Positions 19 through 26,300 of a DNA stretch of 64,000 bases are shown here, in pieces. The notes under the pieces were generated by a model, which saw only the letters and a program-made list of their open reading frames with translations, had not been told where the DNA came from and searched no databases. The stretch's first letter is position 1; each line of letters starts with the position of its first letter. Source of the stretch: Myxococcales bacterium (lineage in GTDB: Bacteria > Myxococcota_A > UBA9160 > UBA4427); contig DUCN01000062.1 of the NCBI GenBank assembly GCA_012959805.1, forward strand, positions 169,373 through 233,372, given 5' to 3'. Both the position numbers and the translations under genes were made by a program.

Positions 19-855
19 TTGATTGGACCTCGAACATTTCTCGAGTACCGGAACTATCGGTATTTGAAGATCGCACTCGGGCTGCTGGGCCTATCGCTGA
101 TCGCCTTCTTTTTCAGTGATGAGCCAGGTGGACGCAGTGGAAGCACGTGGGTTGGCTACGGGCTGGGGGCTATCTCGGCGGGAATCATCTACTGGCTGAT
201 GTGGCTTGGCATTCGCAAGCGCGACTACGCCTCGACCGGCGCTCCGCTGCGCGGTTGGGTTTCCGCACACGTCTATCTGGGATCAACGCTCTTGCTACTC
301 GTGCCACTGCATTCCGCGTTCGAGTTCGGCTGGAACATCCATTCGCTGGCCTACTGGATGATGTGCCTGGTCGTCTTTAGTGGGATGCTCGGCGTCGGCC
401 TCTACGCGTTGGTGCCGACGTCGATGACGCGGAATCGAAACAATATTACGTTGGACGCAATGCTGGAGCGTATCGCGGAAATCGACATGGAATGCCAACT
501 CGCTGCGGGAGGGTTACCTGACTACTACGCGCTGGCGGTCGTGACTTCAATTGAAGAGACTCATATCGGTGGCACCTTGAGGGATCAGCTCTCGGGGTGG
601 GACGATGCTTGTGGAACGTCCAGGGCACTGAAAAAGCTGCGGACCTCGGACATCGAGTTGACCGGCGATGCGAAGACTCAGGAGCGCAAGCTCGTCGAAC
701 TCATCGCGCGAAAGGAGTTGCTGCTCAAGCAGATCCGTCGCGACGTTCGATCCAAGGGGATGCTCGATCTTTGGCTGATCGTCCATGTGCCGGCGGCGTT
801 TGCGACTTGTGCCGGCGTTGGAATTCATGTCTTTGTGGTTTTCTGGTACCACTAG
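19..855 (+). CDS. Membrane protein with cytochrome-b-like paired histidines
   Basis: Integral membrane protein of about 278 residues with five likely membrane segments (about 17-32, 45-65, 82-103, 110-131 and 250-275) and a polar helical stretch (140-245) before the last one. His84 and His98 lie in one helix and His256 and His270 in another. Each pair is separated by 13 residues, the spacing of bis-His ligands in dihaem b-type cytochromes, so I infer a quinol-linked or ferric-reductase-like b-type cytochrome. Location beside multihaem cytochrome genes supports an electron-transfer role, perhaps feeding electrons from the quinone pool to periplasmic cytochromes. The TTG start lacks a convincing ribosome site and the frame is open to the window edge, so the N-terminus may extend upstream. 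It converges on the octahaem gene. No family name is certain. Confidence 0.6.
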   Translation: MIGPRTFLEYRNYRYLKIALGLLGLSLIAFFFSDEPGGRSGSTWVGYGLGAISAGIIYWLMWLGIRKRDYASTGAPLRGWVSAHVYLGSTLLLLVPLHSAFEFGWNIHSLAYWMMCLVVFSGMLGVGLYALVPTSMTRNRNNITLDAMLERIAEIDMECQLAAGGLPDYYALAVVTSIEETHIGGTLRDQLSGWDDACGTSRALKKLRTSDIELTGDAKTQERKLVELIARKELLLKQIRRDVRSKGMLDLWLIVHVPAAFATCAGVGIHVFVVFWYH

Positions 856-950: not shown

Positions 951-2792
951 CTACTTCTTATCGCGTGCGTGACATTGCGTGCATTTGACCGGAGCCTTTT
1001 CGCCTTCGCGTTCTCCAGCGGCGAGTAGTCTATTTACCGCCTTGTGGCAGCTCGCGCAGCTGATCTCTTCCTGCGCAGTGGCCCCACCGAAGTCGAGTCC
1101 CTTGGCGTGGGCATAGAATTTTTTCGCCTTCTCCTCGTCCGCGTCGCCGCCAATGTTGTGGCATTCATTGCAACTCTGTGGGCTGTCATCGCCTTCCTGG
1201 GTATGGTGGCAGGTCTGGCACGCAATGTCGTTGTAGAGCGCCCCGGTCGCATGTTTGCGATGTGGGAACTTGAACGACTTGTATTTCTTGCCGTCGGTGT
1301 TCATGCGGATTGTGTCGTCGACGTCGTCCAGGTATTTGGCCAGCGGGTTGTCAGCGGGAGAGGGCGGGGCTGCAGCGGTCTTCGCCTGCTGTGCTGCTTG
1401 TTTGGCCTTCGCGGCAGCATCCGCTGCGGCTTTGCGCGTGCGCGCATCGGCCGCTTCTTTTGCAGCCACTGCGTTGGCCTCTGCCTGTTTCGCTTTGATG
1501 GCGGCCTGCGCAGTAGCCACATCGGCACTAGCCCTTGCGTCCGCGGCGGCCTTCTGACGCGCTGCTTCCTGCATTTCGGCGTTCTTCGCCGCCATTTCCT
1601 GTTCTTGCGCTGCCGCAACGCTGGCGTTCGTCTGTTCGGCCTTCTTCGCGGCCGCGATTTCAGCGGCCTCTGAGGCGGCTTTGGCCGCCGCCGCATCGGC
1701 ACGTGCGGCTTCCGTCGCTGCCTGCTCGGCCGCCTTTGCTGCACTGGCCGCTGCCGCACCGGCGGCCGCTGTTAGGTCGCCACCTGGCTTCGAAGATTTC
1801 TCTGCCTCGGCCATCGCGTTCGCCCGGCGTCCAGCTTCCTCGCCGTATTCCGCGTAATAGGCGGCATCATCCTTGTCGACCCAGTGCGCGATCTTGCGGG
1901 AGAATTCCCGAAGGTCGAAGCCGATGAAGGTCGGACTCGCCTTATTGTGGCAGCTCGTGCAGACTTCGCGGCGGTCACTGAGGTCGCGCAGGACGCGAAA
2001 GCCCATCGCCTCGCGGTTCGGAACGTCTGGGCCGTGTTCTTCGTCGGCATAGACGCTGCCTGGGCCGTGGCAGACCTCACAGCTCACACCTTCTTCAGCG
2101 CGATAGCTCGAAGCTGTTTGCTCCGGACCCGCACCAAAGGCTGCCTGATGGCATTTTACGCATCGCCAGTCATTGGCGGGATCATCCACGCCCCGGGTTT
2201 TCTGCGCGATCTTCTTTGTGTAGTCACGCTGCAGTGTCTTGTGGGCTTGGGAATGGAAATGACTCTGCCAGACGGGCACAGCACCCTCTGGAAAGTCGCC
2301 TGTCGAATCCGAATGACAATCGGCGCAGACCCGCACGCCCACATATTTGAAGTCGCCTCGCAGGAGGGTCGGAGTTTCGTGCGCTCCGTAGTCGATATTG
2401 ACTTCTTGGGTGCTGGCGGGGGCATCGCCGCGGGCGATGAAACGGGCCGCAACCCATCCAGTGACGTAGTCCCCGGATGCTTTGATGCTGTACCAACGAG
2501 TCTTGCCGACTCGTCTTTCGCCGGTCACGACCACGGGGTCGTATTTCAACAGAATACCGGCGATGGAAGATTTGGCGCCCGGCTCCGCGCGGACGTTCAA
2601 TGCGGTCGGCTTCACGTAGCCATCAAACTCCTGCGCGCTCGCGACAGAAAAGAGAATCGGCAAGAGAAGGGTGGCGAGCGCAATCACGGCGAGGCGGCTT
2701 TGGACTCTGTGCGCAGCCCCGGCACCGCGCCATGCAGTCCGGTTGGCCATCCATCCCTTGCGTTCTAGCTGGTCACGATCGATTTGAGACAA
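951..2792 (-). CDS. Octahaem cytochrome c with SH3 domain and long Ala-rich helix
   Basis: Exported electron carrier. After a signal peptide (hydrophobic core about 34-50) comes a bacterial SH3-like domain (about 57-122). A first module has four CxxCH motifs (156-160, 211-215, 238-242, 278-282), resembling cytochrome c554-type proteins. Residues 325-475 are an almost uninterrupted Ala/Lys/Glu-rich helix, TolA-like in composition. The C-terminal module has four more CxxCH motifs (525-529, 541-545, 579-583, 604-608) and an FPHRKHATG segment typical of class III cytochromes. The likely location is the periplasm, possibly peptidoglycan-associated through the SH3 domain. The TTG start at 2792 is the longest; an ATG at 2750 (residue 15), preceded by AAGGGATGG, gives a more normal signal peptide. 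It is divergent from the large outer-surface cytochrome gene, so both may share a control region. Confidence 0.85.
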   Translation of the reverse strand: MSQIDRDQLERKGWMANRTAWRGAGAAHRVQSRLAVIALATLLLPILFSVASAQEFDGYVKPTALNVRAEPGAKSSIAGILLKYDPVVVTGERRVGKTRWYSIKASGDYVTGWVAARFIARGDAPASTQEVNIDYGAHETPTLLRGDFKYVGVRVCADCHSDSTGDFPEGAVPVWQSHFHSQAHKTLQRDYTKKIAQKTRGVDDPANDWRCVKCHQAAFGAGPEQTASSYRAEEGVSCEVCHGPGSVYADEEHGPDVPNREAMGFRVLRDLSDRREVCTSCHNKASPTFIGFDLREFSRKIAHWVDKDDAAYYAEYGEEAGRRANAMAEAEKSSKPGGDLTAAAGAAAASAAKAAEQAATEAARADAAAAKAASEAAEIAAAKKAEQTNASVAAAQEQEMAAKNAEMQEAARQKAAADARASADVATAQAAIKAKQAEANAVAAKEAADARTRKAAADAAAKAKQAAQQAKTAAAPPSPADNPLAKYLDDVDDTIRMNTDGKKYKSFKFPHRKHATGALYNDIACQTCHHTQEGDDSPQSCNECHNIGGDADEEKAKKFYAHAKGLDFGGATAQEEISCASCHKAVNRLLAAGEREGEKAPVKCTQCHARDKK

Positions 2793-3285
2793 CCCAAATT
2801 CCCCTTAGCCCCATCTGATGATGTGCGATAACCCGCGATCAATGTGACGTGGCAAGTACGCTGCGTTGACGGCGCCGATCGCCCAGGCGAGCCGAAGCGG
2901 AGACCAGCATTGATTGCTTCGAGAGTTGCCAGAAGATCCATCCTTCGGATCGTTCTGGACTCGACGAATATCGGAGATCCTACCCGAAGGCGGTGCCCTC
3001 AAGCGAGGGAAATTTCCGAGAGGGAGATTCCGGAACCGGAACCGGGATCTCTTCGGTCGGGCACTGAGCAGGTTTTTTAATGCAAATATGGGTTGAAAAT
3101 GGCACGCAATCTATCAGGATTGGCAAGGAAATGAAGGCCTCTAATCTGGGGGCGTTTCGATTCGGAAAATACGGATTTCCAGAGGCCAAACCGGGAACTA
3201 TCAAAGCGTCAGATTGGGCTTGAAGCACGGCCGCTGGTGGACCAATCTGATTAGAGCGATTTCCGGAATGAGCGAGAGGCCCATG
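2793..3285. other. Divergent intergenic region of the cytochrome locus
   Basis: About 490 bases separate the octahaem gene (minus strand) from the large Cys-rich cytochrome gene (plus strand). This should hold both promoters. The segment at about 3070-3090 is AT-rich compared with its surroundings and is the most promoter-like part, but I could not assign paired -35/-10 boxes or an operator. No convincing gene lies here. Confidence 0.4.
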
Positions 3286-6200
3286 ATGCAACCCGTGACC
3301 CTTCGACCGTCGATTCAATTCCCGCCATGTGTCCCGAGGAAATCGCTTCGCGATGACGGTCGTAGACACGGATCGTGGATCACTCTTGCCATTCTCGTAC
3401 TGACACTATTGAGCGTCGGATGCAACTCGGGTGGCGATTCGTCTGGGGGAGCCGGAGCTGGCGGCGGCGGGGGTGGCGCGCCTGCGACGACGGCAGGAAT
3501 CGCCGACGGGGGTGGCGCGCTCGAACGTCCTGACATGGAGCGGCGACCGTTCAGTCCGTCCAGCGATTGTAAAGCTTGTCATCCACGCCAATTCAACGAA
3601 TGGCGATCGAGTCCTCACGCATATAGTGGCATTAGTCCGACATTCTATTCGTTGGTCGCAGCGGGACAGAATAGTTTCGGCGCCGGCGTTGCGGTCGCGC
3701 AGAATGACGGCGTTTCTCAAGCCGGAGCGGTCGGCAACTTTTGTCTCCCGTGCCATTCGCCAATTGGATTCATCGGCGACGGTCGGTATGGCGGCAACAA
3801 CGGCGGCTTTGCGAACGTCCAGCCAGAAGCGGCGATCGCGTTCGTCTGCTCTCCCGCAAGCCCGACAAACGCGCTCATGCCCTGCACGCAGGATACTTCA
3901 GCCACTGTCTGCGGGGACCCAGGGCTCTGCTCCCAGTTCGAAGGACGCACTTGTTCGAACTCCCCACCCCAGGCGGCGGGAACGGACTTTCCCCGTCGGA
4001 TGATTCGTTGTGTCGATGACTCTGACTGCGCGGGCGGTTTGAATGGCTGTCCTGCCGGCCGAGATTGCGGAAGTTGCATCATCAATCCCGCCACAATCCA
4101 TTATCCGCCGCGTGCCCAGGAAGGCATCAACTGCGAGGTCTGCCATACGGCTCTTCCTGCCCATCAGCGATCTTGCCAGCTCTTCCGTGGTTCCGATGGG
4201 ACAGGCGTGCTGTCGATCGAGATTGCAGAGCGCGGAGCGAACGAAGACGGTCGTCGGATCCGTCTCGGCCCCTACCCGGTGGATCCCACCAGTGCCCCGG
4301 ACGAAGGACTTCCGGATGACCAGCTCCCTCTCATTCGCAACGCTTTCCACGAGTCTGCACGCGTCGATAGCCCGATGGGCATTCCCTATCAGAACACCGA
4401 CTTTGCGTTCGGTGTTGTCAATACTGCGAATACGGATCCGAATATAGTCAGGCCGACGGCCCTGACGTGTGAAGATCTGCCGTATTGCGGCAATGCGGGT
4501 GCTCCCGGCTCCAACCGTGTCTGCAACGGCGGTCCGACGATCGGTGACCCGTGTGCCAGCGACTTTGACTGCGGTGGCTGTGGTCCGGATCTTATGACCG
4601 GCCAACTTGTCTGTGGGCCCTCAAGCCCTCTGCGGGCCGGCCTTGCTTGTACGACTTCGATCGATTGCAACCAGCCGGCCGACCAAGCGATGAATCTGCT
4701 CCAGATCGCGACGAATTTGATTGACGGCGATGGAACCCTCGGGCCGCTGGCCGCGCGACCGCATTCGCCCTTGGGTGAGCCGGGCATCGAACTCGATCGG
4801 TCCGACGCGAACTATTTTCGCAGCAGCATGATGTGCGCGGCCTGTCATGATGTTAGGCCGCCCTTCGCAAACGCAATCCTGCGTTCCTGCCAGCTCCAGG
4901 ACTCCCATGTTTGTTCGACGGACGCCGACTGCACTGGTTTGAATGTCGGATGTCCGGGGAACGATTGTGGACCGTGTGTTCTTGAGAACAACGCGGCACC
5001 GAGCATCGCCGACGGAACGTCGCCGTCCAACCGCGCAGTCCCCGCCACCATCGATGAGCGCAATAACGGGTATCGGCGCGTGGAGAACCTGTTCAGCGAA
5101 TGGCAGATCAGTGTTTACAACCATCCTGAATTGGAATTCTGTGCGGAGAACACTTTCCGTGCCTGCGCCGAGGACAGCGATTGCATCGTCAATGGGGACG
5201 ACGAGGGTCCCTGTGAAGTAGAGAGCCCGTTGGCTGGCACCGGGACGGTCGTGACTTGTCAGGACTGTCACATGTCCAACTTCCCCGAGACGCCGCTTGT
5301 GAGCTACACGGTCGTTCCGCCGTCTGATCCATTTGACAATCCGGGCGTGGAAGATGAGTCCACACTCATCCCGGTCGTGTTGGCGAGCAAGAACGATCTC
5401 TATTCGGTCGGCAAGGCCGCGATCGAGGGTTCTCAATCGAATCCGGCAGAAGATCTTCCAGTGCGTCGCGTCTCGACGCACTTCATGTCGGGAGTGGATG
5501 TTCCGCTCGTGAGGTACCCGGGTCGAGAGGTCCAGGTCTCGCGTCGCCAGATGATCGTTGACTCGGGATTTAAGATCGTGATCGAAGAGCCACAGAATAT
5601 TACCGAAGGTAAACTCAGAGACGCCCCCTTCGTTCCCGGCGACATCGTTCGTGTTGATATCGAAATCACAAACGTGGGTGCCGGCCATCGCTATCCGGCC
5701 GGATTCTCCCATGAGCGACAAAATTGGGTCCAGATGTATGTCACCGAGATTGAGGCGCTCACGCTCGAAGGCGGTGGTCTCCTCGACCCCTTCGATCTCG
5801 ATGCGCCCTGCAATCTTCAGGAGACCATCGCGCGAAGCGCAGAGGATTCGCGAGATCCGGTCGGCGCTTCACGATTGCTGCTTGCAGGATGTGCGTTCAG
5901 GTCGGGCTTCGTGCTCGACAAAGCGCATCCGGAAACCGGTGAAATGGTTCCCGACGGCAGTCTTCGTGACGAAGATCCGGAAGATTTCTTTGTCGTCACG
6001 GGCACACGCGTTCGGGGCGATCCCGGCGACGCGCGAATCGAAGTCACACCGGGTGCACCGGGGCGAGCGCTATCGATCACGAACATCTGCGAAGAGGCGA
6101 CGGCTCTTGCCTACCGCGCATCGATTGCGGCGGGGTCCGGGCTCGACATGCGCGAGAACTCGACCTTCCCCTTCCAGGCGAGAATCTGCGATGCAAGTTT

Positions 6201-7560
6201 GTCACCGCCGATTCCGGGTGAGGACTTTGATGGTAAGGCCCTGGGCTCGGGTTTCACCTCTCCAGGCTTCGGCAATCCGGGTTGTATGGAAGGTGGCCAG
6301 GACCTCGGACCCTGCGTACCCGAAATCGAGTTGAGCGACGGTAACGAGCGCGGGCGATGTGCCAAGGATTTGACGCGGCCCCTCTGCCAGTCAGACAGTG
6401 AGTGCGGAGACGCAGGACCCTGTCTCTATCGCTGTAGCGAATTCCCGGAACTCCAGTGTTGCGATTCGTCGGATGCCAATTGCCAAGCCTTCTACGACGA
6501 AATTGGACAGTCGGAATGCATGATCGAGACCGACGGGGGGGGAAGCTGTGTCGGAGGCACCGACAACGGCGAGATGTGTATGCTCGACTCCGACTGTATG
6601 TCTAATAACTGTGGCGGCGTGGGCGGAGCAACCTGTGTCGGAGGCGACGACGACGGCCAGATGTGTATGGTCGACACCGATTGTACAGGTATAGACAATG
6701 ACTGTGTCAACCCTGGGATTTGTATTCGCGGAGCGCGATCCGGTCTTGGATGCGACAGGCGGGAAGACTGCAATGACGGCGACCCGGCAGGACCGGCGAA
6801 ATGCGGCGATGTCGGGCCATGTAATGTCGAAAATGCCGGAATCGTGAACTTCCAGAACCAGTTCCGCCAGACGGAAAATGGAGTCTGCGTCGACTTGGAC
6901 AATCCCGTGGATGGTTCGAATCATCCAATCCCCTCGACGACTCCGCCAACGGCTTGTTTCCTCGACTTGACTTGCACACTGAATGGTTTGCCGAACGCGA
7001 CGACGGGCTGTCTGATCATTGGGCAGTGTGCTGAGGACGAATCCCCGTCTGTTCCCGGGGTGAGTAGTATGGCGGGTGATTCCTGTACCAACTTCACCTA
7101 CGCCGACGATTGTGGAAGGAACGCCGGCGGAGACACCATCGCTTGTAATGTCGAGTTCAATCTCGAGTTGAACGGTCGACCCTCGGAATCGGTGTTCGTC
7201 CAGAATCATCCGCACAACTTCAACTCTCTGGCACCCTTGCAGCCACGGGTCTTCGAGTACGAATTCGAAATGCCACCCGAGTTCGCGGACAAGGATTTCG
7301 TGATCGCGGCTCGGATCATGAACCGCCACTTCCCGATGCGATTCCTTCGTAATTTGATTGGGACCCAGGTGGTGACGCCACCGCTAATTGTCGAGGCGCA
7401 GGGCGATCCGGACGATCCCAACGATTGTGATGAGACACGACAGATCGATATCGATTGTTTCGTGGACCCAGTGACGACGCTCGGCAATGCAGAGCCGGGT
7501 GGATTCGTTCCAGACGAGCAATTCACGAGGACGCGAACCTTCAGACTCGAGTCGCCTTGA
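3286..7560 (+). CDS. Giant Cys-rich multihaem outer-surface lipoprotein cytochrome
   Basis: Very large lipoprotein (about 1424 residues from the chosen ATG). A hydrophobic stretch ends in a lipobox (LSVGC), followed by a Gly/Ser-rich linker. Five CxxCH haem motifs lie at bases 3568, 3742, 4132, 4835 and 5256; the first is followed by an FNEWRSSPHA segment typical of multihaem c554-like proteins. Between and after the haems are many short disulphide-type repeats of the form C-x(6-9)-C-x(3-5)-DC (such as NGEMCMLDSDC and DGQMCMVDTDC), densest around bases 6330-6830. The C-terminal half has no haem motif. I infer an outer-membrane, probably surface-exposed terminal electron-transfer protein. It is followed by the MtrA/MtrB-type pair on the same strand. 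Start choice is uncertain: ATG 3286 follows GAGAGG at good spacing, while the frame opens at TTG 3214. Confidence 0.75.
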   Translation: MQPVTLRPSIQFPPCVPRKSLRDDGRRHGSWITLAILVLTLLSVGCNSGGDSSGGAGAGGGGGGAPATTAGIADGGGALERPDMERRPFSPSSDCKACHPRQFNEWRSSPHAYSGISPTFYSLVAAGQNSFGAGVAVAQNDGVSQAGAVGNFCLPCHSPIGFIGDGRYGGNNGGFANVQPEAAIAFVCSPASPTNALMPCTQDTSATVCGDPGLCSQFEGRTCSNSPPQAAGTDFPRRMIRCVDDSDCAGGLNGCPAGRDCGSCIINPATIHYPPRAQEGINCEVCHTALPAHQRSCQLFRGSDGTGVLSIEIAERGANEDGRRIRLGPYPVDPTSAPDEGLPDDQLPLIRNAFHESARVDSPMGIPYQNTDFAFGVVNTANTDPNIVRPTALTCEDLPYCGNAGAPGSNRVCNGGPTIGDPCASDFDCGGCGPDLMTGQLVCGPSSPLRAGLACTTSIDCNQPADQAMNLLQIATNLIDGDGTLGPLAARPHSPLGEPGIELDRSDANYFRSSMMCAACHDVRPPFANAILRSCQLQDSHVCSTDADCTGLNVGCPGNDCGPCVLENNAAPSIADGTSPSNRAVPATIDERNNGYRRVENLFSEWQISVYNHPELEFCAENTFRACAEDSDCIVNGDDEGPCEVESPLAGTGTVVTCQDCHMSNFPETPLVSYTVVPPSDPFDNPGVEDESTLIPVVLASKNDLYSVGKAAIEGSQSNPAEDLPVRRVSTHFMSGVDVPLVRYPGREVQVSRRQMIVDSGFKIVIEEPQNITEGKLRDAPFVPGDIVRVDIEITNVGAGHRYPAGFSHERQNWVQMYVTEIEALTLEGGGLLDPFDLDAPCNLQETIARSAEDSRDPVGASRLLLAGCAFRSGFVLDKAHPETGEMVPDGSLRDEDPEDFFVVTGTRVRGDPGDARIEVTPGAPGRALSITNICEEATALAYRASIAAGSGLDMRENSTFPFQARICDASLSPPIPGEDFDGKALGSGFTSPGFGNPGCMEGGQDLGPCVPEIELSDGNERGRCAKDLTRPLCQSDSECGDAGPCLYRCSEFPELQCCDSSDANCQAFYDEIGQSECMIETDGGGSCVGGTDNGEMCMLDSDCMSNNCGGVGGATCVGGDDDGQMCMVDTDCTGIDNDCVNPGICIRGARSGLGCDRREDCNDGDPAGPAKCGDVGPCNVENAGIVNFQNQFRQTENGVCVDLDNPVDGSNHPIPSTTPPTACFLDLTCTLNGLPNATTGCLIIGQCAEDESPSVPGVSSMAGDSCTNFTYADDCGRNAGGDTIACNVEFNLELNGRPSESVFVQNHPHNFNSLAPLQPRVFEYEFEMPPEFADKDFVIAARIMNRHFPMRFLRNLIGTQVVTPPLIVEAQGDPDDPNDCDETRQIDIDCFVDPVTTLGNAEPGGFVPDEQFTRTRTFRLESP

Positions 7561-7637
7561 TTGGCGAATAGAGGGGGGCCGCCTTCGGGCGCGGTGAGAT
7601 TTGCGAAGATGGGAATGAAAGTGTCGGAGGAGTGGGA

Positions 7638-8624
7638 ATGAGGCGGTCTGAGCCGGGCAGAGTCGCATTGCAAACTTGGATGATCGTGATTGGGGTTATG
7701 TTTCCAATTGCGATGCTTGGCGGGTGTTCGATGAATGCCAACGAAACCGGCCTTCCGCCGATGTTGACTGACAAAGTTCCCGACGCGACCCCCGTCGGCA
7801 GTGATGTCTGTGGCGATTGTCATTCTGCGGAGCCCGAATTTTATCAGACCGGCCATCATCGCGTCGCGTTCTTTCAAGGTGAGACCGGCGCTGGCTGTGA
7901 ATCTTGCCACGGCAATGGCAGTGTTCATGCTGAGTTCTTCTACGAGAATGAAGAGTATGACGATGATCCGACGGACCTGGTCGGGATCGATGACCTCTAC
8001 GGATTCTCCGGCGGCGAACGATCGGCGCTTTGCCAGCAGTGTCACCAGCAGGACTTCCCACTCTGGCCCTTGTCCGACCATGCGCGCTCCGAGGTCGGCT
8101 GCTGGGATTGCCATGCCGACGATCTGCATGCGCCGCCGCCGGGAATCGATGCGGAACCCGCCGTGCTGAATGCGCAGAGCGACAACGACTTCTGCGTTCA
8201 ATGTCATCCGTCTGTCGACGCTGAGTTCAAGCTTCAGTATCACCATCGAGTTCCCGAAGGTCAGATGAACTGCGTCGACTGCCATTCAATTCATGGCGAG
8301 GCGCCTACCGACACGGCGCTTCATGGCGAGAATACGCGCTGCTACGAATGTCACGCTGAGTTCAAGGGGCCCTTTGTCTTCGAGCATCTCGGCACCGAAG
8401 AAAGCTGTTCGAGCTGCCATGCGCCGCATGGTTCTCCGAATAACAAGTTGCTGGTCACGAACGACAACACGCTCTGTGTCCAATGCCACTTCCAGGGCCC
8501 GACTGGTTTTTTTGGTCGGCAACCCCACTCCGGTTTCCTTGGCGGTGCGGCGCTCTGTTATGACTGCCATTCCCATGTTCATGGATCCAATACCAATCGC
8601 AATCTCAACCCGAGGCGTTTCTAA
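7638..8624 (+). CDS. MtrA/DmsE-type decahaem c-type cytochrome, lipidated
   Basis: Periplasmic electron conduit of about 328 residues with ten CxxCH motifs evenly spaced along the protein (CGDCH, CESCH, CQQCH, CWDCH, CVQCH, CVDCH, CYECH, CSSCH, CVQCH, CYDCH), the count and length of the MtrA/DmsE/PioA family. These proteins insert into an outer-membrane barrel and carry electrons across it. Unlike soluble MtrA, the N-terminus is a lipoprotein signal ending in LGGC (Cys30), with Ser at +2, which predicts outer-membrane sorting. ATG 7638 is chosen because GGAGG at 7625 lies 8 bases upstream; a GTG at 7632 is too close. Its stop overlaps the start of the barrel gene by one base (TAATG), implying translational coupling and a stoichiometric complex. 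Confidence 0.9.
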   Translation: MRRSEPGRVALQTWMIVIGVMFPIAMLGGCSMNANETGLPPMLTDKVPDATPVGSDVCGDCHSAEPEFYQTGHHRVAFFQGETGAGCESCHGNGSVHAEFFYENEEYDDDPTDLVGIDDLYGFSGGERSALCQQCHQQDFPLWPLSDHARSEVGCWDCHADDLHAPPPGIDAEPAVLNAQSDNDFCVQCHPSVDAEFKLQYHHRVPEGQMNCVDCHSIHGEAPTDTALHGENTRCYECHAEFKGPFVFEHLGTEESCSSCHAPHGSPNNKLLVTNDNTLCVQCHFQGPTGFFGRQPHSGFLGGAALCYDCHSHVHGSNTNRNLNPRRF

Positions 8625-10750
8625 TGGCCGAATCGCGTAGTTGGGCGCCAGCTCGTTCCGGGCTCGCCGTGGTGTCGCTTTTGTGCTTCGTGGCCTTTCC
8701 CGTCTCGGCGGACGATGACGATGCGGAGGGTTCGAACTCTTGGCGAGAGTTGCCGGAATGGGTGAATCAAATTGGGGTCTCCGGCCGCTACGCCGATGCG
8801 GTGAGCGGGAGCGAGAGCAAGTACCTGGAAGATCACAATATTCAAACCGGACCGGTTCTCAGTCTCGGGATTGAAGATGAACTACCCGACGAAGGAATCC
8901 TGACCATCGATGGATTGGCTGAGCCACTCCAAGAACAGGGCTATTTACTTCTCAATCTGGACGTCCCGGAGAGGTTCACGCTTCACGCGGACGTTCAAGC
9001 GTGGCGCGAGTATTACAATCCGCGGACCGGCGAAAATCCGGTAACCGCTGCGGGCGCTCCCGTTTCCGGAGATTTCCCGAATACGAATGACAGTCGACAA
9101 TTCTTCGGCGGTGGACGGCCTAAGGTCGATTGGCTTCGAACGCGTTCCGGTATCGAAATCGAACTTCCCGCACTCTTAAACGATATCAGCGCAGACTTTA
9201 TCTATCGTCGCGTCGAAGGCCAAATGAGTCTGCTCAAGGGCGGAACCATCGACACGTCCGATCCCATCGCAGGCAGTGGCCCATTTCTCGAGTCCGTGAA
9301 TTTCGATGTGTCGAGTCGAAAGAAAGTCGATTACGAAAGTATCGGTGGGGTCTTTCGTGGCCGGGCGAACCCGGGAGGGTTGAACATCCAGTTCGATGCT
9401 CGCGGCATGCGCGATGATCTGAAATCGATCGTGCGCGAACCGAATTTTGGCGCAGACGCCGGATCAACCCAAGTCGAAATCTACGGCCGTGATACGAAGA
9501 TCGGAATCCTGGACGGTGATCTCGTCATGAGTCGACATCTCGCACACAACCTCTTTGTGTTCGGCGGGGCATCATTTTCGTTCGAGCGCAGCGACCCCGA
9601 ACCGAACCAGCTCGTTCAGACGGGGTTGTTCGCTGCGGTGCCGGCCGGAACGTTCTCGCGAGAAACACTGGATTCAAAGGTCACACGCTTCACCGAAGCT
9701 CTAACCGGCGGTGCCGTTTATCTCCCGATGCGGAATTTGACGATTCGGGCGAATGCCTCGCTGCGTTTCAGTCAACAAGATGGAGACCTAACCGAAGATC
9801 GGCAGGAGGGGGAATTCGCGCTCGGTGATGTCGGGACGATCATTAATGACTCGGAGCGCAATACGGTTTCTGCGAGTGTTCGTGTGAAGGGCGATTGGCG
9901 ACCCATGAAGCGGGTGAAGGTCCTCGGGTTTGCCCGTTTTGATTTCCGCCGTCAAGAGGCTGATTCGACTCGGACCTTTAATTTTACCCCCAGCATTGAC
10001 CTGCCCGAAATCGAGGATTACACGACGGAACGTACGAAGTTTCGCGTAGGCGGCGAAGCTGCGTATCGCTTTCGCCGGGGCCGTACTCTAAGCGGCGGTT
10101 ATGAGTTCGCATACGTTGGCTTCGACAACGACGTCGACCAAATCTCGAATCAGTTCATCATGGAAGACTACGAGCATCTGCGTCATCGGATTCATGTGAA
10201 GGCCGCTGGTCGAATCACGGACAAGATCCGAGGCGAGTTGAGAGCGGAGTACCACTTTGAGAATCGAACGCTTGATGCACCAGCAGTCCAGGCCTCGGAT
10301 TTTACGGTTGAAGAAGACGGCAAAATTGAAATTCAGGGTTTTAGAATCACACCGATGCTGACCTATCAGCATGATAAGCATTGGAGTGGAGTGATGAGCA
10401 CCTCGATCGGCCAGGAGACCTACCATCTCAAGAATGCTGGCCCCAAGCCTGCACTCTTCTCCTCCCAATTTGCGGGATTCGAGTACGAGGCGCTGACTGC
10501 CACGCTTACGAGTTCGTTGAATTGGACGCCTAACGACCGAATGACGAATGCCTTGTCCTACACGCTTTACCACAATTCGGAATCGGTCGAGAATGTGGGA
10601 CATGACGCATCGGTTCGCACGCGTTATGCCCTCGACGAGAATTGGGATCTGAGTGGGATGCTTCGCTATCTCGCCTTTGATCCCAGCGGAAACTCGGTCG
10701 ATGACTATCACGCCCTCATCGTATCAGTGGGAATGACTGGGCACTTCTAG
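8624..10750 (+). CDS. MtrB/PioB-type decahaem-associated outer-membrane barrel
   Basis: Outer-membrane beta-barrel of 708 residues that should sheath the decahaem cytochrome encoded immediately upstream. A cleavable signal peptide (about 1-29, ending VSA before DDDD) precedes alternating amphipathic strands throughout, and the protein ends in an aromatic residue (GMTGHF), the usual barrel-assembly signal. Length is close to MtrB/PioB proteins. I see no cysteine in the mature protein, so the N-terminal CxxC of Shewanella MtrB is absent. Start overlaps the decahaem stop by one base. The 3' end overlaps the convergent FHA-cytochrome gene by 4 bases. Family assignment rests on the paired decahaem gene, size and barrel features rather than on a sequence search. 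Confidence 0.85.
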   Translation: MAESRSWAPARSGLAVVSLLCFVAFPVSADDDDAEGSNSWRELPEWVNQIGVSGRYADAVSGSESKYLEDHNIQTGPVLSLGIEDELPDEGILTIDGLAEPLQEQGYLLLNLDVPERFTLHADVQAWREYYNPRTGENPVTAAGAPVSGDFPNTNDSRQFFGGGRPKVDWLRTRSGIEIELPALLNDISADFIYRRVEGQMSLLKGGTIDTSDPIAGSGPFLESVNFDVSSRKKVDYESIGGVFRGRANPGGLNIQFDARGMRDDLKSIVREPNFGADAGSTQVEIYGRDTKIGILDGDLVMSRHLAHNLFVFGGASFSFERSDPEPNQLVQTGLFAAVPAGTFSRETLDSKVTRFTEALTGGAVYLPMRNLTIRANASLRFSQQDGDLTEDRQEGEFALGDVGTIINDSERNTVSASVRVKGDWRPMKRVKVLGFARFDFRRQEADSTRTFNFTPSIDLPEIEDYTTERTKFRVGGEAAYRFRRGRTLSGGYEFAYVGFDNDVDQISNQFIMEDYEHLRHRIHVKAAGRITDKIRGELRAEYHFENRTLDAPAVQASDFTVEEDGKIEIQGFRITPMLTYQHDKHWSGVMSTSIGQETYHLKNAGPKPALFSSQFAGFEYEALTATLTSSLNWTPNDRMTNALSYTLYHNSESVENVGHDASVRTRYALDENWDLSGMLRYLAFDPSGNSVDDYHALIVSVGMTGHF

Positions 10751-12543
10751 CCACCGGCGTGGGCGGTGGGTTCTGTGGTGCCATGCGGCGAGGCCGCTTG
10801 CTCCTGTGCCATTGGCGGGAGCGTGTGGTCGTGGAAGTCGTGACACGACGAACAGGTGGAAGGGACCTTTCGGTTTCGGTTCTGCCCAGCACTCACATGG
10901 CAGTCTTGGCAGACTTCGATTCGAGGAATCATGATTTCCGAGGATGACTCGGAGACCGTGAAATCTGAACGTTCATCGATTCGGCCGTAGGGGATGGCTC
11001 CGAACTGCGCCCATTTCGGTTCGTCTCCAGGTTCAATGTCGTCGGCGCGGACGGAGGCGCCCGGATGGCAGGTCGAGCAGGCCTGGGTGGCGTGGGCGGA
11101 ATGGCTGAAGCGGGCGCTCTGGATCCAGTTTTGCTGCAGCTGAATGGGCATGACACCTCGGGCGATCCAGTTGCCGGTCTGTTCCGAGACTTTGCCACCG
11201 ATGACCTGATGACATTTCATGCAATGCTCGTCATCCGTAAAGACAAATTTGTCTGCGCTCGCCACCTTCGAACCGATCCAGTCTGCGCTCACGGCGCGTT
11301 CTTCCGTCCCGATTAGCGGTCCAGGCAGGCGTCGGCGGAGGGAGGCGGGGGCGTGGCGATCTTGTATCCGAGCTTCCAGGACCTGGCTGGTAAAGAAGGT
11401 TCGCAGCTGATCGCGAAGTTTTTCAGGATCGCCATGAATGAGCATCAAATCGGAATCAATATCAATTTCCGGAATGTTGGTGTCGAGTGGGTGGCAGCGA
11501 CGGCAGTTGCGATCGAATTGCACCAGCTGCATTGATCGGCCGTCTTCTCTGACTTGGTGACATTGGCCACAGCTAAGCCACTCCTCGCTTCCGTCGGGCC
11601 TTTCGAGCACCTGCGACGTGTGGAAATGATGATCAAATTCCACTCCGGAGTCTTCTTCGAGGCCCTCGGACCAGACCAGGCGATGAGGGGGCTGGTTTGG
11701 ATTTTCGACGACCGCCAACTGAATCGGTGGGTGATTCGAACCGAAGTCGCTTGCATTGGCCAGTTTGGTGTCGGCGACCTGGCTCGAGAGGTCGCCGTGG
11801 CAGGTCACACAATAGGTAGCCCCCTGGTCCGTGAGCGCGACCTCCCGCCCTCGATGTTCGAGATGGCAATCGGAGCAAGCCATTTCGTCGAGTCCCGGCA
11901 TGGCCAAATCCTGTCGTGTATGGCGCCGGATGTCGACATGGCAGCTTGTACAAGAATTGTTGGAGACCTGACGAAAGAGCCCGTCATGACAGCTGGCACA
12001 ATCGTCTTCGATCATGGCGTGGCCGCGAATGACCGGGCCGCTTGTCCAGAAGGGTCGCATCGCCGGGACGAACATCGGTAACACGAAAAATCCCAGAAGG
12101 ATGAGACCGAGACCAATCCAGGAAAGTGGGCGTCGTGCAAAAATGCCACGCTCGATTCCCAGACGCGTCCGCATGTCGAGAGCGTCGCGGGCATTGCCGC
12201 TCAATTGCCGCTCTTCGTATTCGAGGCGGAAGTCTTCACCGGTATTCGCTTCCAGCAGGCGAAGTGTCCATGCGCCGATGTGGATCTCGTCGCCGATGGC
12301 CAGGCGCTCGCCGGTGGTCGGCAAGCCGTTAACGACGACTTCCTGGCCTTGTGCCGCCTCGATGTAGACGTTGCCATCGCCGATGCGCATCGTGGCATGG
12401 TGAAGAGAGGTCGTTAGTCCCTGCAGGCAAAGGTCGTTATCGGGGCCTCGACCAATATAGAGAGACTCGCCTTCGACGCTTTGATCGAGCCGGACGCGCT
12501 TCCCGCCGGGTCGAAGTTTGATCTGGGAAAGGCTGACGCGCAT
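10747..12543 (-). CDS. FHA domain fused through a membrane helix to a decahaem cytochrome
   Basis: Bitopic protein of 598 residues. Residues about 12-100 form an FHA domain with the hallmark residues IGR (30-32), a Ser-x2-His (46-49) and VNG (71-73), which in this family bind phosphothreonine. Residues 141-161 are a membrane helix with positive residues before it, placing FHA in the cytoplasm. Residues 170-598 are periplasmic, with ten CxxCH motifs (182, 198, 223, 245, 325, 347, 441, 489, 545, 564) and many extra His for bis-His ligation. The role is probably an inner-membrane-anchored periplasmic cytochrome, like quinol-to-cytochrome relays, with phospho-dependent recruitment on the cytoplasmic side. 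The kinase or phosphopartner is unknown; two Ser/Thr kinases lie 5-11 kb away. It is transcribed towards the barrel gene. Confidence 0.88.
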   Translation of the reverse strand: MRVSLSQIKLRPGGKRVRLDQSVEGESLYIGRGPDNDLCLQGLTTSLHHATMRIGDGNVYIEAAQGQEVVVNGLPTTGERLAIGDEIHIGAWTLRLLEANTGEDFRLEYEERQLSGNARDALDMRTRLGIERGIFARRPLSWIGLGLILLGFFVLPMFVPAMRPFWTSGPVIRGHAMIEDDCASCHDGLFRQVSNNSCTSCHVDIRRHTRQDLAMPGLDEMACSDCHLEHRGREVALTDQGATYCVTCHGDLSSQVADTKLANASDFGSNHPPIQLAVVENPNQPPHRLVWSEGLEEDSGVEFDHHFHTSQVLERPDGSEEWLSCGQCHQVREDGRSMQLVQFDRNCRRCHPLDTNIPEIDIDSDLMLIHGDPEKLRDQLRTFFTSQVLEARIQDRHAPASLRRRLPGPLIGTEERAVSADWIGSKVASADKFVFTDDEHCMKCHQVIGGKVSEQTGNWIARGVMPIQLQQNWIQSARFSHSAHATQACSTCHPGASVRADDIEPGDEPKWAQFGAIPYGRIDERSDFTVSESSSEIMIPRIEVCQDCHVSAGQNRNRKVPSTCSSCHDFHDHTLPPMAQEQAASPHGTTEPTAHAGG

Positions 12544-17056: not shown

Positions 17057-18985
17057 ATGACGCGCGAGAAGGCGTCGGGTTCGAGAAACGACGCCTCGGC
17101 TGAGGCGGAAACGCGCGTGCTTCCGTCTGATGATGCGGCCGTCGAGGAAACGGATCCAGAGCTTGCCGAAACGGTGCTTGCGACGATCGGTGACGAGCCA
17201 GAATCCGACGTGATAGACGAGGCTGTGCAAGACTTGGACAAGGGTTCTCGTGACGACCCAGACAGCGACCTCACTCAGCTGGTGACGCATGCCGGGGAGG
17301 GGTCTGCATCAGCGTCTGAGCTTGATGCGACGCGAGTGATCGACCCAGCCGCGCTCCCGGCGACTTCCAATCCTCAGGCTGAGGCGGACGCTGCGACACG
17401 TGTTGTTGATCCTTCCGATGACAAAACCTTCCCACCGTCGGCGTCTCGCAACATCCCCGCAAGTGGGCCTTCGGCTCCGCCACCTCCCCCGACGCCCATC
17501 GACAATACTCAGGGCCTAACGCCGGGATCCGTGCTCTTTGGCGAGTATCAAATCGTGAATGTTCTTGGCGTTGGTGGGATGGGCGAAGTGTATCGCGCAC
17601 ATCATCGCCGACTCGACGAGCATCGCGCGATCAAGGTCATGCACGCGAACCTGTCGGGGCAGAAGGGTGCGAGTGAGTTTTTCTATCGAGAAGCAAAAGC
17701 GCTGCTTGCCGTTCGGCACCCCGCAGTCGTCCACTGTCATGATCTCCTTTCGGATGATGCAGGACGCGTTTTCCTCATCATGGAAATGATCGAGGGGATT
17801 CCGCTGTCCGCGAAGATGAACGATGGCCCTCTTTCCCCGGATGAAGTCGCGATTCTCGGTGCGCGGGTTTCGCATGGGTTGAGTGCGGCACATCGGAAGG
17901 GTGTGATTCATCGAGATGTTTCGCCCGACAATATCGTCTTGCCGCGTGGGCGAGTGCAGGAAGCCAAACTGATTGATTTCGGGATTGCGAAGATTCTCCA
18001 GGAAGGCGAGGGCACGATCGTCGATGGATTCAAGGGCAAGCTGTCCTACGCCTCGCCGGAACAGCTCGGTTTCTTTGGTGGAAAGATCGATGGTCGCTCC
18101 GACTTTTACAGCCTTGGGTTGGTCTTGGTCGCCGCCGCAATGGGTCGCCCGCTGAGCATGGGAACGACCGTGATGGAAGCGGTGGACGCGCGTCGAAGCT
18201 TCGATGCATTGCCGGACGCGATCCCGGTTGGGCTGCGTTCGGCGATCGCGCCGTTGCTGAAGCTCGATCCCGACGATCGTCCAGAATACGTGGATCGCCT
18301 CTTCGTTGTACCTGGGGGAATGGAAGGCTCAGCGGATTCCCACGGATACGCGGATGCTGCGCGCGTCGCACGTGGTCGGCCTCCAGCAGGCCAATTTAAT
18401 TTGCGTAGGGGGCTCTTTGTCGGGATCGTGGCAGCATTGTCGTTGCTGGTCGCAGGGGGGCTATACCTCGCATTGGGGACGGAAACAGCCATCTCGCCAC
18501 AAGCGTCGACGACTGATGGTCCCACAGAAGAAATCTTCGTAGGCAGGGTCGAAGTGGGGGCGGTGCCGATAGTTGCTGGCACGAATCGCGTCGAGGTGGA
18601 ATCGCCTGTGCCGAGCGAGCCGGACGTTGTCGTCGTGAGTAGCCCTGCACCCCAACCGAAGAAGCCGCGAAGGCTCACAGCGGGCGAGCGAATCAAGATG
18701 ATCGGCTTGTTGAAAGGTGCGCAGCTATCTCTGGCGGAAAATCAACTGATGTCGCCAGCGAACGACAACGCCTACGATCGTTATCAAAAGGTCCTAGCGA
18801 TGGACCCGGACAATCAAAAGGCAAGAGATGGCTTGCGGGCGATTGCCGACCGCTATCTCAGTCTATTGAATACGGCCGTGGATAAAGGACATCGGCAGGA
18901 CGCCCTCACTTTCCTAGCTCGGGCAAAGAAGGCGGATTCGACCCATCCAGGCATCGATTCAGCGGAGTCGCGCTTGTCGCGTTAG
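17057..18985 (+). CDS. Transmembrane Ser/Thr protein kinase, N-terminal kinase domain
   Basis: Receptor-type Hanks kinase of 642 residues. An acidic Thr/Ser-rich N-terminal region (1-160) carries several repeats of the form ETR/ATRV(L/I)(D/P), possible phosphorylation or FHA-binding sites. The kinase domain (about 164-425) has the Gly loop GVGGMGEVY, AIKV lysine, catalytic HRDVSPDN (Ser replaces the usual Lys, as in many proteobacterial kinases), DFGIAK and a shortened SPE. A membrane helix at about 452-474 is followed by a periplasmic Pro-rich linker and a short TPR-like tail. Substrates are unknown. The presence of an FHA domain in the nearby membrane cytochrome makes that protein a candidate partner, by inference only. 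Confidence 0.85.
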   Translation: MTREKASGSRNDASAEAETRVLPSDDAAVEETDPELAETVLATIGDEPESDVIDEAVQDLDKGSRDDPDSDLTQLVTHAGEGSASASELDATRVIDPAALPATSNPQAEADAATRVVDPSDDKTFPPSASRNIPASGPSAPPPPPTPIDNTQGLTPGSVLFGEYQIVNVLGVGGMGEVYRAHHRRLDEHRAIKVMHANLSGQKGASEFFYREAKALLAVRHPAVVHCHDLLSDDAGRVFLIMEMIEGIPLSAKMNDGPLSPDEVAILGARVSHGLSAAHRKGVIHRDVSPDNIVLPRGRVQEAKLIDFGIAKILQEGEGTIVDGFKGKLSYASPEQLGFFGGKIDGRSDFYSLGLVLVAAAMGRPLSMGTTVMEAVDARRSFDALPDAIPVGLRSAIAPLLKLDPDDRPEYVDRLFVVPGGMEGSADSHGYADAARVARGRPPAGQFNLRRGLFVGIVAALSLLVAGGLYLALGTETAISPQASTTDGPTEEIFVGRVEVGAVPIVAGTNRVEVESPVPSEPDVVVVSSPAPQPKKPRRLTAGERIKMIGLLKGAQLSLAENQLMSPANDNAYDRYQKVLAMDPDNQKARDGLRAIADRYLSLLNTAVDKGHRQDALTFLARAKKADSTHPGIDSAESRLSR

Positions 18986-22762: not shown

Positions 22763-23392
22763 CACGGAGTCGAACGATCGGGATCCAAGTTGTGTTGGTG
22801 TGTGCTTGTGGGCGTTTTTGGGCATTGTGCCGAGTCAGGCTTCAGCTCTGAGACTCACCGGGCTGTCGGAGGCTGAGCTGATCCACCAGTGCTCGTTCCG
22901 ATTCGACTCGCTTCAAATGCAGATCGCGACCCATCGTACTGACAGCATCTTTTGTCGTCGCCAACGCCAGATTCAAGCGACCTAAATAAATCAGATAGGA
23001 AACGTCCGGAGACGAGTCCGACTTCTTGCGTCGTAGTTGGGCCCGGTCCTTGTTCGGTAGCAACTCCGACACGAGGCTCAAGACTTCGGTCGCGATGCAT
23101 CCCTGCACCTTCCGAAACACGGTTTGAGTCAATGGATTGACATATACAGGCCAATTTCGGTGTGATCTTTGATCGCATTCTACGACCGGCCCCTGGATCC
23201 CCGGAGGGGCACCTGCTCGCCAACGGGTCCGACGACCCCATCGGTGGGAAGCCTAACCGACCTGTTCCAGAAGCCGCGCTATCCTGCCGACGTCCCAAAC
23301 CAGCCCCCAGCTGTGATCGTTCGCGAAGACCGCCCATTCCTTTGAGGCTCTGGGAGAAGGCATCGCAACGCACAGGTGGATGTGGAGGCGGC
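22763..23392. other. Long gap between murA and kinase gene
   Basis: About 630 bases. TTGACA at 23136-23141 with a weak TGTGAT 18 bases on could be the promoter for the downstream kinase. The only plausible gene is a weak minus-strand frame at 22842-23132. Nothing else is recognisable. Confidence 0.3.
22842..23132 (-). CDS. Possible small hypothetical protein
   Basis: A 96-residue frame starting with TTG, with protein-like composition: mixed hydrophobic and charged helices (IATEVLSLVSELLPNKDRAQ, SYLIYLGRLNLALATTKDAV), no low complexity and no long Arg/Pro runs of the kind seen in shadow frames. Against it, there is no ribosome site before the TTG, no family is recognised and the neighbourhood gives no support. 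It may encode a small helical cytosolic protein or be chance. Confidence 0.3.
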   Translation of the reverse strand: MTQTVFRKVQGCIATEVLSLVSELLPNKDRAQLRRKKSDSSPDVSYLIYLGRLNLALATTKDAVSTMGRDLHLKRVESERALVDQLSLRQPGESQS

Positions 23393-26300
23393 GTGAGGCC
23401 GACCCACCATCGTCAATTTCTAATCGCACTGCTCTGCGCGCTCGTTTTTCTTTCGAGTGGCGTCAGCGCGTTGCCTGGTCTCGTCGAGGCGGCGAGAGCT
23501 GGAGCGTCGGATCGACAACCCGTGGCCGCACTTCAGGGACCGTGGCGCTGGCTCGAACCAGATCTAGAGAGCCTTCGTTTGACGACTCGGTTGTCACTTG
23601 GTCCCTGGCAAGAAGTCGCAGTGACCCGAGATTCCGATCGGCGGCGAAGGATTATTGAAGAACGCGGGCGAGCATCCCGCGAGAGCACGCGGCCCGAAGC
23701 CGATACGCGCTTTCCCGATTTCGGAGCAGGCGAGCCACGTCCGCAGAGCAAGGCATCGATCCTTCGACGCGCGGCACTGAAATCAGCTCGGCTCCTCGAA
23801 GCGGCCGGCGAATCGGCGGCAGCAGCGGAAGCTTACGCGGGCGTTGTCGCTTCCCGCGAGGTTGTGTTGATTGATGTGTGGCATGGGCTGGCGGCCAATC
23901 TCGCACGGGCTGGTGATTCCGCCGGTGCAGAGATTGCCTTTATGCGCGGCCTGGACGCGTCCGGGCGCGCCGCTGACCAGATTCGCTTCCGTTACGACCT
24001 GGCGGGATTCTACGCCCGGGAGGGTCGGCTCCTCGAGTCGCTTGCGATCGTGGATGCGCTGGCTCCACATGTCCCCGAATCCCGGGTGCTGGCGAATGCG
24101 CAGAGAGGGCTTCGTGCGTCGATTGAACTCAGCGAGCTGGTTGTGCCTCGTGGGGCTGAGCTGAATTGGCCGGTTCACGAAGTGCCACTCGATTGGGCTG
24201 CCTTCGATCCGCGTTTCGCTCAATGGGTCGAGCGCCTATCGCCGGAAACACAACTCCGGATCTATCCATGGTTCGAGCGGATCAAGAATGATGAAGTGGC
24301 CCGCACGACCACGATTGCTGTTGCCGTGGCCTTGTTTCTGCTCGCGATCTTCGTCTTGCTTCGTCAACGTGGTGATGTCTCGGTGGCGATCGAGTACCCA
24401 GAGGAGTTGCGCGGGACCTTTAGCGTCTGTCTTCGTGGTCGCCGTCGGTCGACCCCGGCCAGCCTTAGCGAAGAACAAATCCGCAAGGGCCGCGCGTCGA
24501 TGCGCAACAAACACCATATGGTGTCTCGCGAGACGCGATTCCAACGTCTCTTTACAGGGCGTTATCACGTAATAGTCGACGGGCTGTTGATCGATCCGGA
24601 GACGGATGAGACTCTCGGGCGAGTACACGAAGAGAAAATCGTTCGGATACGACATCGTCGAACCATGCGTCTCGAATTCGATTTTCACCCCACAACAAGT
24701 CCCGTCGATATCAAGGTGCTCTGGGGGGATCGCTCAGCGGACGAAGCGCAGATTACGGTTCCTGGCTCGATCAACAAACCACGATTGGCAAACAAGGGAT
24801 CGATTCGAATCGTGCTGCCCAAGGGCAAGCACCGGTTGCTCATCGGCTGCGGCGATCGCGCCTTTGATCAGAATCTCGAAGTATCCAGTTTCAGGCCTTC
24901 GCTGGTCCAACTGGATGCGCTCGAAAGCAAAGCCGTATTCAAGGGTTGTCCGCCTGCTGTAGTACCCTTTTTGATGGGCGATATGTTAGGTGTAACAAAG
25001 GCGCTCGAGCGAGACGGTCAATCGATATTGGGCTTTCGTCTCATGGCCACTCAACATCGAGCAGACGGGGATGTTTCACGGGCGGCAGACTTTTTTGAAT
25101 CTGCTGGAGACACCCATGCGGCGGCCTTGCTTCGTCTTGAACTTGGAGAACTCGATCGGGCAGCTGCGCTATTCGAGGAGTCTTCGAACTGGATCGAAGC
25201 GGCGGCCGCGTATCGTCAGGGCGGTCAGATCGTGCAGGCCGGTGAGTGCTATGAGCGCGCCTTTGACTACGAGCGTGCCATCGGGTGTTTTAGTGAGGCT
25301 GGAGCGATTGACCACTGGCTGACGGCGCTCGAGCGATTTGGAGAAGTCTTTTCGGCAGCAAAGCTCGCACTCGAACACGACCAGAGACCCCGTGCAATTC
25401 GATTGCTCCAAAGAGTCGAGGCAACGGACGAGAACTTTCGAGAAGTCTGTTCGCTGCTCGCCGAGGCTTTTGAAACCGAGGGCCATTTCGATTTGGCCGC
25501 AGGCAAACTTGACGAATTCATTTCGACTTTCAAACCTGATTTTGCGACGGCTGACAGCTATTCCCGACTCGCAGAATTGTGGGAGAACTCCGGGCATTTA
25601 GAGCGGTCCCTCGATGTACTTGAAGATCTGCGTCGACGTGAGCCAACCTTTCCCAACATCGCTGTGCGTATCGAGGCGCATCGAAAACGCCGCAGTGCTT
25701 CCGGGCATCTCTTTAGTTCGGGGAGTCGAGCGACCGGCGGGGATGCGACCGCTTTTGTCGGGGATGTTCGATATGAGATCGTCGAGGAAGTCGGTCGTGG
25801 CGGGATGGGGATCGTGTATTGCGCGCGGGACACTCGGCTAGATCGTGTTGTCGCGCTGAAGCGACTGCCCGATAGCCTGCGACGGAATCATCCTCGTGCA
25901 TTGCAGTTCTTTCTTCGCGAAGCGCAGTCGGCCGCACGCTTGAACCATCCGAATATTGTAACCGTATACGATGCGGATCAGGAAGACGGGCAATTTTTCA
26001 TCACGATGGAGCTACTCGAAGGCCAGGCTCTGCAGGCCATTCTGTACGAACGCGGTCAGTTGTCGCCTGGCAATGTCGTTGGCATCGCTCGTCAGACCTG
26101 TCGCGGTCTCGACTACGCACATTCTCAAGGCGTCATTCATCGCGATATCAAGACGGCGAATCTATTCGTCACGACGGAACGCGTCGTCAAGATCATGGAC
26201 TTTGGTTTGGCGAAGGTTCTCGAGGAAGTTCGCGGTTCGACGACTCTCGTTTCTGGAACCCCTTACTACATGTCGCCGGAGCAGGTTCTGGGTGAACACG

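Follow-up and report, generated by a model that had tools for sequence, protein, structure and literature searches.

An FHA-decahaem cytochrome of a Myxococcales bacterium as the apparent third part of a conserved redox module

Why should a forkhead-associated (FHA) domain be joined to a membrane-anchored decahaem cytochrome? The question is raised by a gene in contig DUCN01000062.1 of the Myxococcales bacterium assembly GCA_012959805.1, specifically in the stretch of 64,000 nucleotides at positions 169,373 to 233,372, here called the window. An earlier note on this DNA had suggested that the gene product, which we call DECA, places a periplasmic electron relay fed by quinol under the control of protein phosphorylation. 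Our analyses indicate that this odd protein is the third part of a conserved and apparently undescribed three-gene machine, the other two parts being a cytoplasmic reductase (RED) and a b561-like membrane protein (CYB). We consider it likely that DECA is the periplasmic electron-accepting subunit of this inner-membrane module, and its FHA domain looks like a cytoplasmic docking handle or tether rather than a kinase switch.

An authentic fusion of an FHA domain and a decahaem cytochrome

The gene and the relevant parts of its product are the following (positions of the window).
10747..12543, minus strand: DECA, FHA-transmembrane helix-decahaem cytochrome, ATG start, 598 aa; putative third subunit of the module
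12274..12459, minus strand: FHA domain of DECA, aa 29-90 (PF00498, alignment with GarA, residue counts)
12448-12450, 12406-12408 and 12343-12345, minus strand: FHA residues Arg32, Ser46 and Gln67, the last at the site of the phosphothreonine-contacting Asn
12061..12117, minus strand: single transmembrane helix, approximately aa 143-161, N-terminus inside (hydropathy and charge count)
10840..12000, minus strand: periplasmic part with the ten haem-binding CxxCH motifs, aa 182-568 (motif count and conservation)

The open reading frame thus has the layout that the earlier note had ascribed to it, an FHA domain followed by one helix and ten CxxCH motifs. PF00498 matches residues 29-90 (8e-8, 33.1 bits against a curated cut-off of 20.7) and class III/c7 cytochrome models cover the remainder of the protein in profile searches (PF02085, 4e-14), the CxxCH motifs lying at residues 182, 198, 223, 245, 325, 347, 441, 489, 545 and 564. 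Since more positive charge precedes the helix than follows it, the N-terminus is predicted to be inside and the C-terminus outside. The placement of the FHA domain in the cytoplasm and of the haems in the periplasm, the role in electron export and the pairing with an outer-membrane conduit, all proposed in the earlier note, are supported by our results. Among the 24 sequences on which the conservation counts for DECA and RED are based, ten additional histidines are invariant or nearly so. They match the CxxCH motifs in number, which is the pattern of bis-His cytochromes of the c3/c7 type, and would fit the role of distal ligands.

An origin of DECA by assembly artefact or by chance can be excluded, as the full-length fusion is present in congeners and in Pseudomonadota. 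Homologues complete with the FHA domain occur in six other genomes of the order to which the window organism belongs, five of them from the same genus (G202, G212, G197, G307 and G306, the last with two copies) and one from another family (G027). They occur also in 14 of 399 genomes of Pseudomonadota and on 12 Sphingobium plasmids, the best named being that of Sphingobium herbicidovorans (NZ_CP020539.1). In several of the Pseudomonadota members PF00498 falls slightly under its cut-off. Across the 24 homologues, whose identity to the window protein goes down to ~24%, all 30 CxxCH residues and the pair Gly31-Arg32 are invariant. A scan of the genome contigs with degenerate patterns gave just one match, an unrelated ten-haem protein of Ferrimonas. 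The earlier statement that no characterised protein has this layout needs to be qualified, as DECA is carried by Sphingobium isolates and a ten-haem 'Forkhead-associated protein' has been tabulated in a paper on Gallionellaceae.

RED, CYB and DECA are encoded side by side

The two other components are encoded at the edge of the window and just beyond it.
-3067..-47, just outside the window (locus L036, 11306-14326): RED, FHA-FAD-2x cyclic nucleotide-4x[4Fe-4S] reductase, upstream neighbour of CYB
19..855, plus strand: CYB, b561-like membrane subunit, 278 aa, usually encoded immediately 5' of DECA

We compared the gene neighbourhoods at 23 loci besides the window, from the same order and from Pseudomonadota, and in all 23 the genes for RED, CYB and DECA follow one another directly, in this order and in the same orientation. 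Most of them overlap or are separated by a few bases, the larger overlaps and gaps being partly due to uncertain start codons. RED was never absent beside CYB and DECA in the loci examined, and the full cassette is found also in Sphingobium isolates, for instance on plasmid pMSHV of S. herbicidovorans MH (RED, B6S01_RS18455; CYB, RS18450; DECA, RS18445). The quinol relay envisaged in the earlier note as standing alone is thus not supported, the true partners of DECA being a flavin, iron-sulfur and cyclic-nucleotide reductase and a b-type membrane subunit, which are always adjacent elsewhere. In two genomes (G345 and G464) RED and CYB are a single open reading frame. These fusions, of ~1120 aa (L073, 4849-8205; L072, 3052-6423), constitute a natural link of reductase and membrane subunit. 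RED and CYB are adjacent in the window genome as well, but DECA lies 10 kb off and inverted, with an outer-membrane cassette (951-10750) in between.

RED combines a YpdA/thioredoxin-reductase-like NAD(P)H-FAD domain (Pyr_redox) with two cyclic nucleotide-binding domains and Fer4 domains. Its 16 iron-sulfur cysteines are all invariant, which points to four [4Fe-4S] clusters, and the dinucleotide-binding glycines are conserved; the second cyclic-nucleotide domain displays the CRP/PKA-type motif G-E...R-[ST]-A in nearly all of the 24 sequences. The closest relatives of solved structure, by sequence, are Bdr/YpdA, the cyclic-nucleotide domains of PKA and CRP, and iron-sulfur subunits of the HycB type. 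An assignment of RED as a YpdA bacillithiol-disulfide reductase was rejected, because it scores 139.5 bits against 339.9 for the equivalog and has the domain fold alone in common with it. In CYB, the invariant histidines comprise two pairs spaced 14 residues apart (84/98 and 256/270) and His108, a pattern as expected for transmembrane b haems, and PF01292 is matched, if weakly, by 16 of 17 members.

The outer-membrane cassette of the window

The genes lying between CYB and DECA are the following.
951..2792, minus strand: SH3-domain multihaem cytochrome, 8 CxxCH, at the edge of the cassette
3214..7560, plus strand: probably a surface multihaem protein, 1448 aa, 5 CxxCH, N-terminus lipobox-like; kept in L088 and L089
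7632..8624, plus strand: DmsE/MtrA/GSU2203-like decahaem cytochrome, 10 CxxCH (TIGR03508 and NF041028 scores)
8624..10750, plus strand: outer-membrane beta-barrel, 708 aa, MtrB-type by position and size (weak OMP_b-brl, GSU2204-like)

The convergence of the DECA gene on an MtrA/MtrB-type pair, pointed out in the earlier note, is real, the stop codon of DECA overlapping that of the barrel gene by 4 nt. The decahaem protein of the pair scores 188.6 bits with TIGR03508, borderline to the cut-off of 192.2, and 189.3 with NF041028, the cut-off of which is 325. The barrel matches the models searched weakly, and its partner reaches a score with GSU2203 that is on a par with that for DmsE/MtrA; GSU2203/GSU2204 may therefore be the nearer relatives of the pair. 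Homologues of the barrel occur in three genomes of the family of the window organism. All four genes of the cassette recur in other genera of this family (L088 from G304 and L089 from G022), L088 having a RED-like fragment in front of them, and the MtrA-like and barrel genes alone are found in L085 (G051). At L045 (G182) the gene for the SH3-domain cytochrome adjoins a related but rearranged inner module. In this arrangement, a protein with two FHA domains, two cyclic-nucleotide domains and four iron-sulfur clusters is encoded beside a transmembrane nine-haem protein fused to an FAD/NAD(P)H domain (L045, 1119-3329 and 4259-6382; L090 of G051, 5842-8040).

A different set of outer genes is seen at 15-16 of the 23 other loci, namely genes for an HbpS-like protein, a barrel and a large ten-haem protein with LVIVD repeats (the last at, for example, L037, 16220-20000, and L046, 15747-19736). 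The LVIVD gene was searched for in the window genome and is absent from it. A literature search combining LVIVD and multiheme retrieved no paper on an outer-membrane conduit of this type. Because most other loci use the LVIVD set and the cassette of the window recurs in other genera of its family, the window locus looks like the inner module with a changed outer conduit. The divergence of the proteins is uneven: the window sequences are 75-79% identical to those of congeners in RED and CYB, 59-62% in the FHA domain and 40-42% in the haem domain, while congeners among themselves share 78-93% in the haem domain. The terminal tree branch of the window DECA measures 1.24 as opposed to 0.04-0.17 in congeners, and that of its RED 0.25 as opposed to 0.02-0.11. 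The divergence of the haem domain coincides with the loss of the LVIVD gene and the gain of the MtrAB cassette, as would be expected if the FHA domain faces inner partners that were retained and the haem domain an outer one that was replaced.

Several loci encode cytochromes of another kind, periplasmic proteins with 21 haems spaced by ~17 residues (L007, L008, L010, L011, L015, L044 and L091), which at their N-terminus are similar to residues 150-237 of DECA, where the decahaem domain starts. At L044 and L091 a distant relative of CYB adjoins the 21-haem cytochrome, perhaps representing a second, PCC3-like system.

The FHA domain and the control of the module

The earlier note had cited IGR, Ser-x2-His and VNG residues as the signature of the FHA domain. 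All of them are present (Arg32, Ser46-x-x-His49 and residues 71-73), but the VNG is distinct from the phosphothreonine-contacting site: in the alignment with GarA (2kkl) the contacting Asn corresponds to Gln67 and the Thr following it to Val69. A shortened NG-T loop was considered and rejected, as the alignment reveals a substitution (Gln67) and no deletion. Among the 24 homologues Arg32 is kept in all; members of the window genus retain Ser46, which is seen in 8 of the 24 overall (the 16 others have Glu, Asn, Ala, Pro, Asp or Gly), and Asn never occurs at the contacting position. A competent phosphothreonine pocket, as supposed previously, is hence not supported, Arg alone being invariant, and because of the missing Asn and the frequent replacement of Ser we regard classical phosphothreonine reading by the DECA family as doubtful, though the window protein itself may be capable of it.

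Could the domain, then, be a phospho-independent structural module that serves complex assembly only, akin to the FHA-fold domains of the type III and type VII secretion proteins YscD and EssC? The model for the cytoplasmic domain of YscD (PF16697) scores as well as or better than the FHA model in several DECA members, and most members have a degenerate pocket. A single-sequence AlphaFold model of DECA (pLDDT, the predicted local distance difference test, 58.9) is too poor for the Arg/Ser geometry of the pocket; a Foldseek search with this low-confidence model placed EssC (its FHA domain being the second match) and the FHA domains of GarA/OdhI near the top, none of them clearly below E 0.001. 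The retention of the phosphate-contacting Arg in all 24 homologues, despite identity down to ~25%, speaks against a purely structural role, and we put this explanation only slightly short of an even chance.

Less probable is the reading proposed in the earlier note, that the FHA domain recognizes phosphothreonine and so recruits, clusters or gates the cytochrome under the control of nearby kinases. Besides the cut-off-passing FHA match, the invariant Arg32 and the Ser46 of the window genus, it can invoke the FHA domain at the start of RED, which is found in this genus only and keeps the canonical GR/SRxH/NxT pattern, and the pair of canonical FHA domains that RED-like proteins have in another genus of the family. 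Because RED and RED-like proteins also carry them, FHA domains have by our reading been recruited to the redox system more than once. Two kinases do lie within 11 kb of DECA, as had been remarked, and they are two of the five kinases of the genome that exceed the cut-off.
17057-18985: Ser/Thr kinase, 4.5 kb from DECA
23162-26554: Ser/Thr kinase, 10.6 kb from DECA
However, both have orthologues in three congeners (G305, G163 and G177) in which DECA has no match at E 1e-10, and in congeners that do carry the system the orthologues are situated ~17-35 kb from its genes. The kinases have no match in the Pseudomonadota loci, and a single kinase-like gene was noticed near the G306 paralogue. Since the orthologues occur in non-carriers and are distant in carriers, their proximity to DECA is attributable to the gene order shared by the genus; a kinase operon is rejected on gene order and on presence and absence. 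Together with the pocket substitutions, this makes control by these kinases improbable.

Control by cyclic nucleotides has more support, because RED contains two domains of the respective kind and because, of 16 Pseudomonadota loci, 9 have a gene for a CpdA/SpdA-like cyclic-nucleotide phosphodiesterase immediately 3' of DECA (L046, 13821-14669; L047, 13814-14662; and seven others) and one more has it at a distance of a few kb.

A proposed mechanism and its alternatives

Judging from its domains, RED would accept electrons from NAD(P)H on its FAD domain and relay them through the four [4Fe-4S] clusters; CYB, given its invariant histidines, would move them across the inner membrane on b haems. 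The decahaem domain would receive the electrons on the outside and pass them to an exchangeable outer-membrane conduit, which may be the MtrA/MtrB-type cassette here and the set of HbpS-like, barrel and ten-haem LVIVD proteins elsewhere. The cytoplasmic FHA domain would dock DECA to RED and CYB, and binding of cyclic nucleotides to RED probably tunes the activity of the module. A more far-reaching formulation, which we advance tentatively and think rather less probable than not, sees in the module a quinone-independent entry to extracellular electron transfer that is switched by cAMP/GMP, assembled through FHA domains with a possible phospho-signal, distributed over two phyla and combined with swappable conduits.

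Several observations weigh against the role that we assign to DECA. Its gene stands outside the operon in the window genome, CYB scores 27.7 bits with PF01292, under the cut-off of 30.1, and no relative of CYB was found by sequence among solved structures. That the haem domain has diverged faster could also be due to relaxed constraint, and an import of electrons by these components is conceivable, which might be useful to the iron oxidizers discussed in PMC10734462.

One alternative is that the module is a quinol-oxidizing relay comparable to CymA, NapC and CbcL; quinol would be the electron donor of CYB, and RED no more than a regulator. CYB and DECA do resemble a split CbcL, and b561-like proteins often react with quinones. 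Yet RED retains all of its iron-sulfur cysteines and dinucleotide-binding glycines, forms one protein with CYB in two genomes and is missing from none of the loci examined, so a catalytic rather than a regulatory RED is favoured and the quinol relay seems unlikely. We give a similarly low probability to an inward flow, whereby an external source such as Fe(II) would supply electrons to DECA, and CYB would deliver them for the reduction of NAD(P)+ or ferredoxin. A decahaem 'Forkhead-associated protein' is recorded for 27 of 87 genomes of iron-oxidizing Gallionellaceae, and MtrA/MtoA-type conduits are thought to be reversible (PMC10734462). Against this, reduction of NAD+ from such potentials needs an input of energy, and no coupling subunit was seen; moreover, the full cassette occurs in isolates of Sphingobium, a genus of aerobic heterotrophs.

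Relation to known systems and implications

DECA as an electron-accepting subunit beside RED and CYB has parallels in several known systems. Like the Hmc, Tmc, Nhc and Qrc complexes of sulfate reducers, the module brings together a periplasmic multihaem cytochrome c, a membrane subunit and an iron-sulfur protein across the inner membrane, and weak profile matches to HmcA, HmcB, QrcA and DsrO were obtained. Unlike Hmc/Tmc, it is without an NrfD/HmcC-like subunit (no HmcC-like gene was found among the conserved neighbours), has 10 haems instead of 16, has its iron-sulfur part in one protein with an NAD(P)H-FAD domain and a pair of cyclic-nucleotide domains, and includes FHA. Membership of DECA in Hmc/Tmc was accordingly rejected (34 of 400 bits with the HmcA model; ten haems, against 16 in HmcA and four in TmcA). 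CbcL of Geobacter likewise joins a haem b membrane part to a multihaem c part in the periplasm; our module, however, has two separate genes, an added cytoplasmic reductase and FHA in place of a direct fusion. DECA shares with CymA, NapC and NrfH the single N-terminal helix and a periplasmic multihaem domain feeding an outer conduit, but differs in its cytoplasmic FHA part of ~100 residues and in its obligate reductase and b-type partners. The window pair at 7632-10750, the probable outer partner, resembles the porin-cytochrome pairs MtrAB and GSU2203-GSU2204, although both genes are under the equivalog cut-offs. The closest solved counterparts of the FHA domain are those of the regulators GarA and OdhI, which are soluble and possess a complete SRxH and NGT pocket, whereas the pocket of DECA is partial.

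The literature search for FHA or forkhead combined with multihaem retrieved a single paper, and that for cyclic nucleotide-binding domains with decaheme retrieved none. Table 1 of this paper, a Gallionellaceae pangenome study (PMC10734462), lists as cluster 403 a 'Forkhead-associated protein' with 10 motifs. It is like DECA in its FHA annotation and its ten CxxCH, as compared by the table entry alone; it is tabulated without discussion, its neighbours and mechanism being left undescribed there. An FHA-decahaem protein common in the genomes of these iron oxidizers has thus so far occupied one line of a table.

Known routes into outer-membrane conduits mostly start from quinol, as with CymA, ImcH and CbcL. 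The presence of the module in cultured Sphingobium makes it testable, and, judging from the outer cassette that the window genome has naturally exchanged, the inner and outer halves seem to be modular. If our interpretation is true, electrons would enter a conduit from an NAD(P)H dehydrogenase of the cytoplasm that is equipped with regulatory domains of its own, which would change the view of how reducing power is linked to external electron acceptors.

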